Shown: positions 3,591 through 18,164 of the stretch, piece by piece
Layout: every line of letters begins with the position of its first letter
Numbering within the stretch: position 1 is the first letter of the stretch
Assembly (NCBI GenBank): GCA_007136095.1
Contig: SLHP01000099.1
Location: forward strand, 1 to 36,649
Reading direction: 5' to 3'
Length of the DNA: 36,649 bases
Origin: Nitriliruptoraceae bacterium
GTDB taxonomy: Bacteria > Actinomycetota > Nitriliruptoria > Nitriliruptorales > Nitriliruptoraceae
The notes under the pieces: model-generated
The model's input: the letters and a program-made list of their open reading frames with translations, nothing else
What the model was told of the DNA's origin: nothing
Database searches by the model: none
Made by a program: the position numbers and the translations under genes

Positions 3591-4100
3591 TCAGTCCTCG
3601 TCGAGCGCATCTTCGTCGGACGAATCCTGGTCGAATGAATTCTCGGCGAGGTCGAGCAGTGGGACGACCTCGACCGGCACGGTCACGTCGTCGGACCGGT
3701 CGAAGCGCAGCGTGAGGTCGAAGGTACCGCCCTCCACGACGGTCTCGTCCGGCACGACCATCATCAGGTGGAGGCCCCCGGGCCGGAGTCGGGTGGTCTC
3801 ACCGGCGGGCAGGGGGATGGTGTCGAGCTCCCGCATGGTCGCGCGGTCGTCCTCGATCTCGGTGACGTGCAGTTCGACGCCGAGGGCCGCCGGCGTCGTG
3901 GCCTCGACGAGTTCGTCATCGCCGTCACCGTCGTTGGTGATCGCCACCACGATCTGGGAACTGCCCGATGTGGGGACGGCCGCCTGTGCCGGGGAGACGG
4001 ACAGCTCCGGGGTCCCTGACGGCCCACACGCGCTCAACGCGGCCAGGAGCAGGAGCACGGCGGAGGTCGTGATGGCGGCGCGGGGGCAGGAGGGCGTCAT
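3591..4100 (-). CDS. PCuAC-family copper chaperone lipoprotein
   Basis: 169 residues with a lipoprotein signal peptide (LLLLAALSACG, Cys25). The canonical copper-binding pattern H-x10-M-x21-H-x-M is exact: His78, Met89, His111, Met113, in ELHVTEIEDDRATM and GGLHLMM. The family binds Cu(I) in the periplasm or cell-wall space and passes it to CuA with SCO1, whose gene is next downstream. The C-terminal ~20 residues are an unusual acidic tail rich in Asp/Glu/Ser (NSFDQDSSDEDALDED), absent from most homologues I know. The start has GGAGCTCCC just upstream. It is 27 bp downstream of the AspT-like transporter gene, so probably in one operon with it. Confidence 0.9.
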   Translation of the reverse strand: MTPSCPRAAITTSAVLLLLAALSACGPSGTPELSVSPAQAAVPTSGSSQIVVAITNDGDGDDELVEATTPAALGVELHVTEIEDDRATMRELDTIPLPAGETTRLRPGGLHLMMVVPDETVVEGGTFDLTLRFDRSDDVTVPVEVVPLLDLAENSFDQDSSDEDALDED

Positions 4101-12309: not shown

Positions 12310-12358
12310 TCGCACCCCGCTCGTGTCTCGGCCCGTTGCCGCTGCGGAGTCCGCCTCG

Positions 12359-12364
12359 TACCGT
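12359..12364 (+). promoter_or_regulatory. -10-like element for the LCP gene
   Basis: TACCGT places transcription initiation near 12371-12372. This is downstream of the ATG at 12366, so that codon would not be in the mRNA; the GTG at 12399, with GGGGAGG at 12383-12389, is then the natural start. No clear -35 is seen. Confidence 0.35.
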
Positions 12365-12398
12365 GATGAGCGGTGATCGAGCGGGGAGGGGCGGGACG

Positions 12399-13931
12399 GT
12401 GGCGGTGTGGTTGATGCACCCTGCAGATCGCCGCCGCAGGACCGGGCGGGGTCTCCGTGCCGCGCTGGCGTCGCTGCTGCTCCCCGGCGCTGGGCAACTG
12501 CTCCTCGGCGACCGTCGCCGGGCCGCGGCGCTGCTCGTGGCCACGATCCTCGTGCTCGCCGGTGGCGTCTGGCTCCTGCGCCGACCGCCCGGCGACCTCC
12601 TGGCCTGGTTCGTCGACCCGCGGGTGCTGCTCGCTGCGCTCGCTCTGAACGTTGTCCTGCTCGCGGGTCGCCTCTACGCCGTCTTCCAGGCCTACGGCAG
12701 GGGTGTCCGCCCGCCCGCTGAACCCGTCCAGCCACGAGGCCGGTTGGCCGCTGCCGGTGTCGGCCTGGTGCTGGGCCTCGTCGCAGTCGTCGTTGCCGCC
12801 CCGCACGTCGCTGCCGGCTACTACGTCGCTGCCGCCCACGGTGTCGTCACCACCACCTTCATCGAGGATGCCCGGGTGAGCGAGGTGCTGGCGGGGGATC
12901 ACGCAGACCGCGGGCCGGACGATGGTCCGGCTGTGACGATCGAGGTGCCAGGGTCGGACGTCCCTGCCGCGGACCCAGCGGACCCAGCGGACCCAGCGGA
13001 GGCCGTCGAGACGCGGGACAACCCCTGGTTGCACGGCGGTCGGATCACGGTGGCGTTGTTGGGCTCGGACGCGGGTCCCGGCCGAACCGGCGAGCGCATC
13101 GACGCGATCCTGGTCGTGAGCCTGGACCCCCAGACCGGCGACGTGGCGGTCTTCTCCGTCGACCGCTACCTCGCGGATCTCCCGCTGCCCAGTCGACTCG
13201 AGGAGGTCTATCGGACGCACTGCCCACAGGGCGACGGGTGGGAGTTCATCCTGGCGCTGTACCGCTGCGCAGACGAACGGGCGCCCGAGGAGTTCGCGGC
13301 GGTCTATCCGGCAGCTGAGGATCCGGCGGCAGCGGCGATGACCGACGTCCTGTCCGAACTGCTCGGTCTCGAGGTCCCGTACTACGCGATGGTGGACATG
13401 GCCGGGTTCGTCGACGTCGTGGATGCGCTCGGTGGGGTCGAGGTCGATCTGGGGCAGCCCGTGCGGGTTCGGATATCGCCGCCGACGGCGGGGGACGACT
13501 GGTACACCGTCGATCTGGCCGCCGGCGTGCAGGAACTCGACGGACGGGAGGCGTTGGCCTTCGCGCGCGTCCGGGCCGGGTCGGGCGGGGACGCGGACCG
13601 CATGCGCCGGCAACGGTGCCTGGTCACCAGTGTCGCGGATCGCTCGGACGTCGGTGCGCTCCTGCGCGGGTTCCCCACCCTCGCGTCCGCCATCGAGGAC
13701 AGCGTGCGGACCAACATCCCGCTCGGGATGCTGCCCGACCTGTTGCAACTCGGGCCGCAGATCGACCATGAACGTGCCGTGACGGTCGGGTTCGGTCCGC
13801 CGGAGTACCGCGGTCCGGACCACCGTCCCGACGTCGAGCGCATCCGCGACCGCGTGACCGAGGTGCTGGCGGATCCGGGGACAGCGGCCACGGCCGAGTC
13901 GGCCGAGACCGGTGCCGAGGTCTGTCGCTGA
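12399..13931 (+). CDS. LytR-CpsA-Psr (LCP) family protein
   Basis: 510 residues from GTG 12399 (strong GGGGAGG upstream; in-frame alternatives at 12336, 12366 and 12414). The N-terminal ~150 residues hold hydrophobic stretches (LLLPGAGQLLLGDRRRAAALLVATILVLAGGVWLL, split here as two segments; LLAALALNVVLLAGRLYAV; AAGVGLVLGLVAVVVAA), more membrane segments than the single one usual for LCP proteins. A Pro/Asp/Ala linker precedes the LCP domain (about 215-430): VALLGSD (Asp224), ERIDAILVVSLDP, FSVDRYL (Asp255, Arg256), MVDMAGFVDVVDALGGVEVDL, ALAFARVRAG..DADRMRRQR. These enzymes transfer undecaprenyl-linked glycans to peptidoglycan outside the membrane, e.g. arabinogalactan or teichoic-type polymers. 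Confidence 0.9.
   Translation: MAVWLMHPADRRRRTGRGLRAALASLLLPGAGQLLLGDRRRAAALLVATILVLAGGVWLLRRPPGDLLAWFVDPRVLLAALALNVVLLAGRLYAVFQAYGRGVRPPAEPVQPRGRLAAAGVGLVLGLVAVVVAAPHVAAGYYVAAAHGVVTTTFIEDARVSEVLAGDHADRGPDDGPAVTIEVPGSDVPAADPADPADPAEAVETRDNPWLHGGRITVALLGSDAGPGRTGERIDAILVVSLDPQTGDVAVFSVDRYLADLPLPSRLEEVYRTHCPQGDGWEFILALYRCADERAPEEFAAVYPAAEDPAAAAMTDVLSELLGLEVPYYAMVDMAGFVDVVDALGGVEVDLGQPVRVRISPPTAGDDWYTVDLAAGVQELDGREALAFARVRAGSGGDADRMRRQRCLVTSVADRSDVGALLRGFPTLASAIEDSVRTNIPLGMLPDLLQLGPQIDHERAVTVGFGPPEYRGPDHRPDVERIRDRVTEVLADPGTAATAESAETGAEVCR
12971..12997 (+). repeat. Three perfect 9-bp tandem repeats inside the LCP gene
   Basis: GGACCCAGC is repeated three times without change, encoding an A-D-P tripeptide run in the extracytoplasmic linker just before the LCP domain. 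Unit length is a multiple of three, so copy-number change would only alter linker length. Confidence 0.85.
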
Positions 13932-13985
13932 GCCGACGGCGGCCGGTCGATGGCCAGGGGGTTCACGGTCGACCCAGCGGTCTCC

Positions 13986-13991
13986 TACCGT
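13986..13991 (+). promoter_or_regulatory. -10-like element for the S9 peptidase gene
   Basis: TACCGT lies 31 nt before the ATG at 14023, giving a leader of about 24 nt that includes AAGGG (14011-14015) 7 nt before the ATG. No -35 box is obvious. Confidence 0.35.
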
Positions 13992-14022
13992 GGCGATCCC
14001 GCCTCAACCCAAGGGCCACCAC

Positions 14023-15861
14023 ATGTCCCCGGCCATCCTGCTCGTCCCACGCGATGTCCTGTTCGGCAACCCTGAGCGGACCGGCCCGAGCCTCTCACCG
14101 GATGGTCGTCAGATGGCCTGGCTCGCGCCCGTCGACGGTGTGCTGAACGTCTTCGTCGGGGCCGCCGACCTGACCGGTGCACGGCCGGTCACCGACGATC
14201 GGGACCGCGGGATCCGCACGGTCGCCTGGGCGCACGACGGGCGTCACCTGCTGTACGTCCAGGACGATGGCGGGGACGAGAACTGGCGGCTGCACGCCAT
14301 CGACCTCGACACCGGCGGCGACCGTGACCTCACGCCCTTCGACGAGGTCCAGGCCCAGGTCGTGGCGATGGACAAGCGCCACCCCGACGACGTGCTGATC
14401 GGGCTCAACAAGGAACGTCCGGAACTGCACGACGTCTACCGCCTACACCTGCCGACCGGTGACCTGACGATGGTCCTGGACAACCCGGGGTTCGTGGGCT
14501 TCGTCGCGGACCGCGAGCTGCGTGTACGTGCCGGGGTGGCGCCACGCCCGGACGGCGGTGTGACGATCATGGTCCGCGACAGCACGGACGACGACTGGCG
14601 CACGCTGGTCGACGTCGGGCAGGAGGACGCACTCGGGACCATGCCCCTGGCGTTCAGCGAGGATGGGCGGCACCTGCTCGCCCTGAGCTCCGTCGACGCC
14701 AACGCCAGTCGCCTGGTGCGCCACGACCTCGACGGCGACACCGTCGAGGTGGTGGCACAGGACGACCGGTACGACGTGGCCGACGTCCGGCTCGACCCGG
14801 ACACGGGACAGGTGCAGTGGGTGAGCTTCCTGCGCGAACGCGTCCATCACGAACCCCTCGATGAGGGTGTCCGCGACGACCTGGCGGTCCTGACCGATAC
14901 TGAACGTGGCGAGATGGCGGTGCTGGGTGAGGATCACACCGACCGGCGCTGGGTGGTGGCCTACGTGCGGGATGACGGCCCGACCCGCTACCACCTCTAC
15001 GACCGCGACGCACGATCGTTGCCGTTGCTGTTCGAGGATCGTCCAGAGCTCGGTCGCTACGACCTCGCAACGATGGAGCCGTTCCGCATGACCGCTCGGG
15101 ACGGTCTGGAACTGCAGGGCTACCTCACAGCGCCGATCGGCACGGAGCGGCGGGACCTGGCGACGGTGCTGCTGGTCCACGGAGGCCCATGGGCCCGGGA
15201 CCTGTGGGGCTACGACCCCCAGGTCCAGTGGCTGGCCAACCGCGGCTACCTCGTCCTGCAGGTGAACTTCCGCGGCTCGACCGGGTACGGCAAGCGGTTC
15301 CTCAACGCCGGTGACCGCGCGTGGGGCGCGGCGATGCACGACGACCTCGTCGACACCGTGCGCTGGGCGGTCGAGCAGGGGTTCGCCGATCCTGACCGCG
15401 TCGCGATCCAGGGCGGGTCGTACGGGGGCTACGCCGCGCTGGTCGGGGCCACCTTCACCCCGGAGGTCTTCGCCTGCGCGGTGGACCTCGTCGGGCCGTC
15501 GAACCTGCAGACGTTGATCGCCTCCATCCCACCGTACTGGGAGCCGTTGATCGCCCAGTTCCACACGCGGATCGGCCACCCGGAACACGACGCCGATCTG
15601 CTGTGGCAACGCTCGCCGCTGTCACGGGCGGACCAGGTCTCGATCCCGCTCCTGATCGGCCAGGGTGCCAACGACCCGCGGGTGAAACAGGCCGAATCCG
15701 AGCAGTTCGTCACCGCGTTGCGCGAGCAGGGCATCGACCACGAGTACCTGCTGTTCGAGGACGAGGGGCACGGGTTCGCCAAGCCCGAGAACCGCCTGAC
15801 GTTCTACGCGGCGGTTGAGGCCTTCCTGGCGAAGCACCTCGGTGGTCGTCAGGAGCCCTGA
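14023..15861 (+). CDS. S9 family peptidase (prolyl oligopeptidase/acylaminoacyl-peptidase type)
   Basis: 612 residues from ATG 14023. The N-terminal ~370 residues are beta-propeller-like, with repeats such as GPSLSPDGRQMAWLAP and TVAWAHDGRHLLYVQDDGGDENWRLHAIDLDTG (the latter in two blades). The C-terminal alpha/beta-hydrolase domain has LLVHGGPWARD, LQVNFRGSTGYGKRF, the nucleophile Ser466 in GGSYGGYAAL, Asp551 in GANDPRV and His583 in DEGHGFAKPEN, a complete catalytic triad. No signal peptide is seen, so it is probably cytoplasmic and cleaves short peptides. It is likely transcribed separately from, or weakly with, the LCP gene 91 bp upstream. Confidence 0.93.
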   Translation: MSPAILLVPRDVLFGNPERTGPSLSPDGRQMAWLAPVDGVLNVFVGAADLTGARPVTDDRDRGIRTVAWAHDGRHLLYVQDDGGDENWRLHAIDLDTGGDRDLTPFDEVQAQVVAMDKRHPDDVLIGLNKERPELHDVYRLHLPTGDLTMVLDNPGFVGFVADRELRVRAGVAPRPDGGVTIMVRDSTDDDWRTLVDVGQEDALGTMPLAFSEDGRHLLALSSVDANASRLVRHDLDGDTVEVVAQDDRYDVADVRLDPDTGQVQWVSFLRERVHHEPLDEGVRDDLAVLTDTERGEMAVLGEDHTDRRWVVAYVRDDGPTRYHLYDRDARSLPLLFEDRPELGRYDLATMEPFRMTARDGLELQGYLTAPIGTERRDLATVLLVHGGPWARDLWGYDPQVQWLANRGYLVLQVNFRGSTGYGKRFLNAGDRAWGAAMHDDLVDTVRWAVEQGFADPDRVAIQGGSYGGYAALVGATFTPEVFACAVDLVGPSNLQTLIASIPPYWEPLIAQFHTRIGHPEHDADLLWQRSPLSRADQVSIPLLIGQGANDPRVKQAESEQFVTALREQGIDHEYLLFEDEGHGFAKPENRLTFYAAVEAFLAKHLGGRQEP

Positions 15862-15924
15862 GCGCGACGGACCGATGCAACGGGCAACGACCGACGTCGT
15901 CGTATCGGCTGACCGCCCACCTCG

Positions 15925-16498
15925 ATGTTGTCGCGTGACGGCTCGTTGGCTGTGTGGGCTCGGCACGATGTGGCGTCCGTCCGGATCCCGGTGATCCTCA
16001 AGGCGCGGACGGGAGCACACGAGGTCATCTCGACCATCATGCCCAACAACATCGCCATCCTGGTGAGCGGCTATCTGGTGCCGACGACCCTGTTCCGGCA
16101 ACCGGACCGCACCGATCCGGTGTCGACGACCGTCGAGGGCAGCGCGATCTTCCCGCGCTCCATCCCCGGGCTCCGTGTGAACACGTCCCTGATCATGGCG
16201 CTGACCCTGGCGGTCGTGATCTTCTGGCTCGTCGAGCGGTCAACGCGAGGGTTCGAACTCAACGCGAGGGTTCGAACTCAACGCGGTCGGGATGAACGCC
16301 AACGCCGCGACCAGCGCCGGGATGGACCCCAACCGCACGCTGATCGGGGCGATGACCGTCGGAGGCGCGTTGTCGGGTGCGGCCGGTGCAGCGCTGATCA
16401 TCGCGTTCATCGCGGCACCCGGACTCGTCCGGGCGCTCTTCCGGATCAAGGCTGACGATCTGGCGACCGGGCAGGTCGCGAAGGGGTGGGGCGGATGA
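15925..16498 (+). pseudogene. Remnant of an ABC transporter permease (simple-sugar/nucleoside type)
   Basis: From about 15976 the frame encodes VILKARTGAHEVISTIMPNNIAI, IPGLRVNTSLIMALTLAVVIFWLVERSTRGFELNA, which I recognise as the permease family of BmpA/YufO-YufP-YufQ-like transporters (normally LKARTGAHEVI.TIM). A 19-bp tandem duplication (16247-16284) then shifts the frame; deleting one copy joins it exactly to AVGMNANAATSAGMDPNRTLIGAM...SGAAGAAL in the downstream frame. The N-terminal half is missing, and the sequence jumps from GAAGAALI to the family's C-terminal FIAAPGLVRALFRIKADD and KGWGG, so a large internal part also seems lost. Its stop overlaps the next remnant (ATGA), as in an intact operon. 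The first ~50 bases after 15861 hold nothing recognisable. Confidence 0.8.
16247..16284 (+). repeat. 19-bp perfect tandem duplication causing a frameshift
   Basis: The unit GAGGGTTCGAACTCAACGC occurs twice (16247-16265, 16266-16284), and 7 bases of the same period precede it (TCAACGC at 16240-16246). 19 is not a multiple of 3. Removing one unit restores the permease frame through S-T-R-G-F-E-L-N-A-V-G-M. Confidence 0.95.
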
Positions 16499-17250
16499 GC
16501 GCCGTGACCGAACCACAGGCCACGACGACCTCGGGGTCGCTGGCCGAACGCACCCTGCAACGTCGCAACCGACGCTTCGGGGCGTTCTCGATCCTGCTGG
16601 CCGTCGTCATGGCGGCCGTGTTCTCGAGTTCCGCCCGCGGGCAGTTGTTCAACCTGCCCAACCTCAGCGTGTCGGTGACCCCGAACTCCCCGACCCGCTT
16701 CCCGACCCTGGCGATCCCACTGCTCAGCGAGATCCCCATCATCGGACCGGTGCTGTTCCGCCAGTCGATCCTGGTGTTCGGTATGTTCGCGGCCGTCATC
16801 GCGTTGCAGTACGGGCTGTTCAGGACCCGGTGGGGGCTGTGACTGCGGTCCGTCGGTGAGCACCCGAAGGCCGCTGATACGGTCGGGATCACGGTCCTTG
16901 CCACCCGCTACGAGGCCGTGCTGCTCGGCGGGGTGTTCGCGAGGATCGGCGGTGCCTACTTCACGCTCGACGCCGTCGGATCGTTCCCCCGCGAGATGTC
17001 CGGTGGCCGTGGCTTCATCGCGCTGGCGGCGATGCTCGTCGGTCGGTACAGGCCCGTCGGCGCGTTCGGCGCGGCGCTGATCTTCGGGTTCGTGGACTCC
17101 CTGGCGACCTCGTTGCAACTGCTGCGGGTCCCGGTCCCGTCCAACCTGCTGCTCACCGCGCCGTACGTGGTGACCATCCTGGTGGTCGCCCGTCTGATCG
17201 GCCGGTTGCGCCCGCCGGCGGCCGACGGCAAGCCCTACATCAAGGAATGA
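16495..17250 (+). pseudogene. Second ABC permease of the same transporter, with an in-frame stop and internal deletion
   Basis: ATG 16495 overlaps the upstream stop. The frame encodes a normal-looking N-terminus (SLAERTLQRRNRRFGAFSILLAVVMAAVF), jumps to FPTLAIPLLSEIPIIGPVLFRQSILVFG (normally ~200 residues later) and reaches LFRTRWGL, where TGA (16840-16842) interrupts it. The very same frame continues LRSVGEHPKAADTVGITV, GGVFARIGGAYFTLDAVGSF, EMSGGRGFIALAAMLVGRYRPVGAFGAALIFGFVDSL and the C-terminal ADGKPYIKE, ending at 17248-17250. The TGA is one C-to-T change away from CGA (Arg), the residue expected. So this gene has one nonsense mutation plus a large in-frame deletion. No substrate-binding protein or ATPase gene is nearby. 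Confidence 0.85.
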
Positions 17251-17253
17251 TCC

Positions 17254-17265
17254 GCCGGGGCCGGC
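17254..17265. terminator. Possible weak bidirectional hairpin
   Basis: GCCGGGGCCGGC lies between the convergent ends of the permease remnant and the YbaK gene. It is a short palindrome (5-bp arms) with no T-tract, so terminator function is only a suggestion. Confidence 0.2.
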
Positions 17266-17736
17266 TCACCCCGCGAGGTCGATGACGGGAGCGCCGGTGA
17301 CCCGCAGCAGCAGGTCCGGGGCGATCCCGAAGACCGTGGCCGGTGTGCCGGCGGCGGCCCAGACCTGCTCGAAGGTGGTCAGGTCCCGGTCGCAGACCAC
17401 CTGCAGGTCCGTGGTGTGGCCGAAGGGCGGCGTGCCGCCGATGGCGAAGCCCGTGGCCCGTCGGACCTCGTCGGCGTCGGCCTTGCGGACACTGCCCGCG
17501 GCCAGGGCCGACGCCAGCTTGGCCTCGTCGACCCGGTTGCCACCGGAGGTCAGCGCCAGGACGGGGAGGTCGTCCGCGATGAACACCAGCGACTTGACGA
17601 TCTGGCGCACGTCGCAGCCGATGGCCGTGGCGGCGTCCGCAGCGGTCCGGGTCCCGGCGGGGAACTCCTCGAGGTCCACGGGCACCCCGTGGGACTCGGC
17701 GCTGGCGAGGAAGCGGTCGAGCGATCCGGAGGCCAT
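17266..17736 (-). CDS. YbaK/EbsC-family aminoacyl-tRNA deacylase-like protein
   Basis: 156 residues from ATG 17736, preceded by AGGGGTGACC; a GTG two codons upstream is too close to that site. The YbaK/ProX fold is shown by SHGVPVDLEEFPAGTRTAADAATAIGCDVRQIVKSLVF (the family's ATAA.ALG....QI.KSL pattern, with the conserved Lys), SGGNRVDEAKLA and GFAIGGTPPFGHTT (normally GGVpPfG). Members hydrolyse mischarged tRNA, such as Cys- or Ala-tRNAPro. The gene starts 2 nt after the stop of the upstream gene, so both are probably on one mRNA. Confidence 0.9.
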   Translation of the reverse strand: MASGSLDRFLASAESHGVPVDLEEFPAGTRTAADAATAIGCDVRQIVKSLVFIADDLPVLALTSGGNRVDEAKLASALAAGSVRKADADEVRRATGFAIGGTPPFGHTTDLQVVCDRDLTTFEQVWAAAGTPATVFGIAPDLLLRVTGAPVIDLAG

Positions 17737-17738
17737 GG

Positions 17739-18164
17739 TCACCCCTGCTGTCGGTCGGTTCGGTCGGACGGTCCCGGCAGGGTGATGGTGCCACGCAACG
17801 GCTCGGTGCCGGGTACGACCTGGACCGCGATCGACAGCGTGCTGCCGGGTCGGGGAGCCGGCACGAGTCGTACCTCGCCGTTGCTGAACCGACGGTCACC
17901 CCGCCCGACCGCATCGAAGATCTCCAGGGGCGAGCCGTCGGCGGTGGCCCCCCAGGCGTCGACGGGAGGCACCCGTCGGGTCAGGCGCTGCGTCGCGCCG
18001 ATGTCGATACGGGCGAAGCGCAGGTCCGCCCAGCCATCCCAGACCTCCAGGCTCAACAGCACCACTCGTTGCCCGGCGCGATCGCCGAGGTCGACATCCA
18101 GTGGCAGGACCCCGCGGGGCACCGGTGGCAGAGGGGCGTCGTCGGGCAGGTGGGCAGCGGTCAT
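17739..18164 (-). CDS. Protein of unknown function
   Basis: 141 residues; GGAGA lies 6 nt before the ATG. The N-terminus is proline-rich (DDAPLPPVPRGVLPLDVDLG), the middle reads VVLLSLEVWDGWADLRFARIDIG, and the C-terminal half has alternating hydrophobic residues (STLSIAVQVVPGTEPLRGTITLPG), suggesting a small all-beta domain. No membrane segment, signal peptide or metal motif is visible. I do not recognise the family. It is coupled to the YbaK-like gene and diverges from the cysteine desulfurase gene. Confidence 0.7.
   Translation of the reverse strand: MTAAHLPDDAPLPPVPRGVLPLDVDLGDRAGQRVVLLSLEVWDGWADLRFARIDIGATQRLTRRVPPVDAWGATADGSPLEIFDAVGRGDRRFSNGEVRLVPAPRPGSTLSIAVQVVPGTEPLRGTITLPGPSDRTDRQQG

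Follow-up and report, generated by a model that had tools for sequence, protein, structure and literature searches.

A probable displaced pseudogene pair derived from the permeases of a BMP/PnrA-type ABC importer in a Nitriliruptoraceae genome

BMP/PnrA-type importers and related permeases

YufP and YufQ, presumably of the same type as NupP and NupQ, are names used for the permeases of BMP/PnrA-type ABC importers. In the relatives of the genome described here, the operons for these importers encode a binding protein of the Bmp family (PF02608), an ATPase in which two stretches match ABC_tran, and a pair of permeases (permA and permB) whose genes have overlapping ends; at least one of these permeases has tested as PF02653 (BPD_transp_2). 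The importer probably transports nucleosides or a similar small nutrient, as judged from the family to which the binding proteins of the relatives belong. The stretch of DNA analyzed here (the window) is a 36,649-nucleotide contig (C62) from a 3.06 Mb draft assembly of Nitriliruptoraceae bacterium comprising 269 contigs, which is 92.08% complete. Fragments within the window align to the relatives' permeases at up to 87% amino acid identity. In contrast to the relatives' operons, the window contains only truncated, frameshifted, and stop-interrupted permeases, without an ATPase or binding protein.

The top NCBIfam matches of the permeases from two intact relatives are the putative B6 ABC transporter permease subunits 1 and 2 (NF047928 and NF047929), with scores of 182 and 123 bits. 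These scores are far below the curated cut-offs of 465 and 400 bits, and therefore the relatives' permeases, which were the proteins scanned, are not members of these families by that test. No solved structure of the family was found at E 0.001 in a phmmer search with one intact permB as the query. The window fragments also resemble ordinary bacterial pseudogenes shaped by short-repeat slippage, as they contain a tandem duplication, a nonsense codon, and a deletion located at a direct repeat that is short and imperfect; nothing notable distinguishes them from such pseudogenes except three frame-keeping deletions.

The most probable reading of the locus (about 0.87) is that it is a displaced, partnerless, and non-functional pseudogene pair derived from the two permeases of a BMP/PnrA-type ABC importer. 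A working importer is not expected because the N-terminal part of permA, conserved core segments, the binding protein, and the ATPase are all missing. The event is ordinary gene decay in a known type of importer and does not represent a new system. Its importance hardly extends past this lineage, where it documents that an uncultured genus lost one nutrient importer. For annotators, the locus is a warning that no transporter should be called from these open frames; it also illustrates neatly, in a GC-rich genome, a deletion that falls at a short direct repeat.

Comparison with intact orthologues

DNA matches to the window region were found in 47 of 61 genomes, and from these, 16 regions with intact orthologues, all of the same family (probably Nitriliruptoraceae), were aligned with window positions 15862–17262. 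Six of the 16 are short loci (L019–L022, L024, and L025), the upstream flanks of which lie outside the alignment. Disabling lesions relative to the intact orthologues are present in all 16 alignments. Alignment to intact permeases was one of the checks proposed in an earlier, sequence-only reading of this DNA, and the outcome agrees with its central claim of a broken permease pair: remnants of two overlapping PF02653 permease genes occupy positions 15975–17250. The curated cut-off for PF02653 is 26.8 bits. The permB remnant scores 63.7 bits when read through one TGA, and the permA remnant scores 84.7 bits when joined with its in-frame neighbors. Of the open pieces taken alone, the permA frame reaches 26.7 bits, which is below the cut-off and does not constitute a match, and the other reaches 27.4 bits. 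The window does not hold two full-length open permease genes, as the pair carries a 5' truncation, a 19-bp gain, losses of 204, 36, and 495 bp, and a stop codon. Beyond what the sequence-only reading described, the pair has lost its 5' end, is found away from the aspC site used by most relatives, and has neither a binding protein nor an operon-type ATPase in its assembly.

The permA remnant

The remnant of the first permease gene, permA, lies on the forward strand at 15975–16498 and ends with the stop codon TGA at 16496–16498, as defined by the alignments and by PF02653. Homology to the 16 orthologues begins at approximately 15973–15986 in most alignments, which shortens the extent originally proposed, from 15925. 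Because homology begins only at approximately 15975–15985, permA lacks its N-terminal part, and the initial 20 codons of the listed open reading frame are without any match in a protein search. Searches of positions 15862–15984 against the relatives' stretches with tblastx and blastn revealed no orderly trace of the ATPase or of the permA N-terminus, only short scattered matches with best E values, among the matches listed, of 6e-4 (chained pieces of 10–13 residues) and 0.034.

The frame of permA is shifted by a perfect 19-bp tandem duplication at 16240–16277 on the forward strand, made up of two identical units arranged head to tail (16240–16258 and 16259–16277). The claim that this duplication breaks the first frame is borne out by all 16 alignments, each of which shows a 19-base insertion in the window, placed at 16239 for 15 orthologues and at 16240 for one. 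Further downstream, the junction of a net 204-bp in-frame deletion is located at 16389–16394 (forward strand). The net loss is seen in 16/16 alignments, as a single gap in 12 and as split gaps summing to 204 in G008, G020, G024, and G025. An imperfect direct repeat is found at this junction, with 10–12 identical bases out of 15 in five relatives; in a rough same-frame comparison, an equally good match occurs in 0.5 to 5.8% of random pairs. At 16164–16167 the window also has 9 bases fewer than G031, G027, and G023. This shortfall, along with the extra bases near the permB N-terminus described below, is treated as probable ordinary variation.

The permB remnant

The remnant of the second permease gene, permB, extends from 16495 to 17250 on the forward strand, with one TGA inside. 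Its ATG overlaps the permA stop in the sequence ATGA at 16495–16498, and ATGA or GTGA is present at the permA stop in 9/9 relatives looked at, so the start–stop coupling said to survive between the two genes is indeed retained. Two in-frame deletions were measured against five relatives, as looser alignments of distant relatives split the gaps. The junction zone of a 36-bp deletion lies at 16619–16638 and that of a 495-bp deletion at 16661–16685 (both forward strand). Both losses, which are multiples of three, are seen in 5/5 relatives, with G014 lacking a further 3 bases. Together with the 204-bp loss in permA, these deletions confirm that large conserved parts are skipped in both genes. The piece lost in the 36-bp deletion has Arg-Gly at both flanks in 4/5 relatives, while no clear repeat was seen at the 495-bp junction in the five relatives. 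At the permB N-terminus, gaps in the alignments to 5/5 close relatives each give the window a surplus of 3 to 15 bases; with one exception, the small length steps in permA and permB are divisible by three, singly or in sum.

The permB frame is interrupted by a TGA at 16840–16842 (forward strand), where all 16 aligned relatives have Arg. The predicted replacement of an Arg codon therefore stands, as to the amino acid; the exact codon proposed, CGA, occurs in 0/16 relatives, which instead use CGC, CGG, or AGG. The same frame then continues to a normal C-terminus at 17250, as had been claimed, with 84–87% identity over 135 amino acids to the seven closest relatives. In searches with tblastx and blastn, the sequence beyond 17250 gave only short scattered matches, with best E values of 0.004 and 0.016 among the matches listed.

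The remnant has collected the 19-bp duplication, the stop codon, and the three in-frame deletions in an order that is not implied by these comparisons. At least one and probably two of the deletions may have arisen between short repeats, as would be expected from replication slippage. A different source of the lesions would be the assembler, which may have collapsed, duplicated, or miscalled intact genes. The assembly is a draft of 269 contigs, a short imperfect repeat marks the 204-bp deletion, 1.3 kb is a small space for one duplication, one stop, and three deletions, and isolated in-frame stops are found in matches from other drafts of the family. Against this, several lesions of unlike kinds would all need to be wrong, and the remnants are flanked on both sides by open genes within a single 36.6-kb contig. 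The repeats also match imperfectly and do not exceed about 15 bases, and the words used in assembly are usually longer than that. An assembly error is quite unlikely because it must explain these several unlike lesions and, at the same time, the missing partner genes described below.

Constraint on the surviving codons

The surviving permB codons of the window differ from those of G031 at 12%, 6%, and 37% of codon positions 1, 2, and 3, respectively. On a fixed tree, the ratio of branch length at positions 1+2 to that at position 3 is 0.0551/0.3740 = 0.15 for the window's branch. The same ratio summed over the tree is 1.198/8.226 = 0.15, and ratios for single branches range from 0 to 0.26 with one zero-length branch left out. 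The window's branch thus gives the same ratio as the tree, with no sign of relaxed constraint; this fits a recent loss and is also a point against the pseudogene reading. These values suggest that, over most of its separate history, the gene probably experienced ordinary constraint. As the surviving codons are constrained like those of intact copies, the inactivation looks recent on this scale. The sequence-only reading had proposed recent inactivation followed by deletion; inactivation is supported by the alignments and its recency agrees with the substitution pattern, while the order of events is not supported.

The constraint on the codons, together with the fact that the internal deletions (204, 36, and 495 bp) all keep the frame, which has a chance of about 1 in 27, would also be compatible with shortened permeases that still work by means of stop-codon readthrough and frameshifting. 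The frame-keeping deletions could hint at selection after the first deletion, a point against the pseudogene reading. The idea of working short permeases is scarcely credible, given that it has to accommodate a frameshift, a stop, and the loss of conserved core segments in combination, and that the assembly yielded neither an ATPase nor a binding protein of this type to serve as partner.

The permB tree was also considered as a guide to the source of the fragment. Acquisition from a particular relative was set aside, as the tree groups the fragment with G010 at a support of only 70, and no transfer is claimed. The fragment is not firmly placed at this support and the tree does not fix its origin, which also weighs against the pseudogene reading as a displaced pair. 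The aspC tree groups G000 with G001–G003 at a support of 93, and many of its deeper supports are low.

Partner genes and permeases elsewhere in the genome

No BMP gene was found in the window's own assembly (92% complete), with 0 matches both by protein search and by PF02608. Matches to PF02608 are present in 24/28 genomes, with none in G000, G001, G011, and G016. Nor did the own assembly return a close counterpart of the operon's two-domain ATPase; its best match among those listed has an E value of 5.9e-28 and falls in a 291-aa frame. In the other four genomes searched, matches spanned almost the entire query with E values no worse than 3.0e-74, including one at E 7.5e-131 over nearly full length in G003. 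The absence of the BMP gene and of the operon-type ATPase from the rest of the assembly also argues against an assembly error at the permeases. The draft nature of the assembly can be held against the pseudogene reading as well: with 269 contigs and 92% completeness, an intact copy or the partner genes could lie in a gap.

The sequence-only reading suggested looking for an intact operon elsewhere in the genome, and none was found: family, DNA, and protein searches of the own assembly identified no intact orthologous permease pair. Besides the window, the PF02653 search of the own genome returned three open permease pairs, of which contig C124 carries two and C244 one, along with a piece at the end of contig C235. 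These paralogues were rejected as the intact copy, as the DNA search of the own genome matched the window alone (a first pass scored 6 of 182 candidates) and the paralogues (L001–L007 and L038–L041) have no protein match to the window pieces at E 1e-4. Shorter ABC ATPase matches adjoin one of the C124 pairs and the C235 piece, which suggests that these permeases belong to systems of the branched-chain amino acid type.

The usual site of the operon beside aspC

The aminotransferase gene aspC, used as a marker, is present in 24/27 genomes searched, and the permeases adjoin it in 16 of these 24. In 15 of the 16, permB converges on aspC. In the remaining genome, G018, the importer operon is on the opposite side, between AspC and SerC (L031, contig C80, 3453–11959). 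In G010 and G014 the gene order is SerC, AspC, permB, permA, ATPase, BMP, g307, and SAHH, with PfkB before SerC in G010. The genomes that have aspC without adjoining permeases are G000 to G003, G007, G009, G011, and G016. Within the window's genus, all four genomes (G000 to G003) have PfkB, SerC, AspC, g307, and SAHH in that order, with no operon between. As the operon is absent at aspC in 4/4 genomes of the genus, the window pieces are not at the usual site. The same absence counts against an assembly error. A second whole-looking operon (BMP, ATPase, permA, and permB) is found in G019 (L032, contig C144, 5389–10478), where the permeases that adjoin aspC are on contig C5.

The present site between etfA and ybaK

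The window fragment is located between an S9-type peptidase gene and ybaK, within a variable stretch bounded by etfA and ybaK. The upstream neighbor is the open S9-type peptidase gene at 13912–15861 on the forward strand (PF00326, E 2.2e-49). The downstream, convergent neighbor is an open ybaK-like aminoacyl-tRNA editing gene at 17266–17742 on the reverse strand (PF04073, E 3.6e-26). Thirteen ybaK stretches were examined, eight of which also hold etfA (G015, G025, G007, G019, G031, G026, G018, and G014), and in none of these eight was an LCP, S9, or permease match found between etfA and ybaK at E 1e-10. The spacing between the etfA and ybaK matches ranges from about 40 bases to 3.6 kb in the eight relatives, compared with 4.96 kb in the window. 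The ybaK stretches examined in G002, G003, G005, G009, and G013 contain no etfA. In G002 and G003, which belong to the window's genus, the gene after ybaK, on its strand, is a different BMP gene; in G003 an ATPase and permeases lie behind it. The G003 operon occupies 3–4732 of contig C96 (L090) and runs to the contig end, and the G002 copy, at 3593–4663 of contig C528 (L091), consists of the BMP gene only and is cut by the contig end.

The displaced pseudogene pair is a piece that starts inside permA and ends at the permB stop; it lies in the etfA–ybaK stretch, which it may have reached by rearrangement or transfer. It may have arrived in this shortened form, or the entire operon may have come and its front been lost afterwards. 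The second course, a tentative variant of the main reading, is decay in place, in which the whole importer worked between etfA and ybaK in an ancestor and its front genes were deleted there. The BMP gene directly beside ybaK in G002 and G003 indicates that the site can hold such operons, and the remnants were under ordinary constraint for most of their branch. The G003 operon runs in the opposite direction to the window pieces, however, and is only distantly related, with no protein match between its permeases and the window pieces at E 1e-4 and only a 74-base DNA match. The scattered matches in 15862–15984 (best E 6e-4 among those listed) and the absence of permeases between etfA and ybaK in 8/8 relatives also speak against decay in place. 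Since an orderly upstream trace is lacking, landing as a piece is slightly favored over decay in place. A further proposal, that the etfA–ybaK stretch is a recurrent landing site for BMP-type importer genes and that the three frame-keeping deletions occurred while a shortened permease was still translated, is considered very unlikely.

Homologues of the S9 peptidase (67–75% identical) occur in 5/24 genomes searched, and the stretches that carry them in these five genomes have no match to other genes of the window (17 tested). Single in-frame stops were observed in S9-peptidase or aspC matches at L046 (G019, contig C155), L051 (G003, contig C113), and L215 (G019, contig C5). Within the window, the LytR/CpsA/Psr-family gene at 12336–13931 contains a short tandem repeat at 12974–13001 with a 9-base unit, which encodes a repeated Asp-Pro-Ala.
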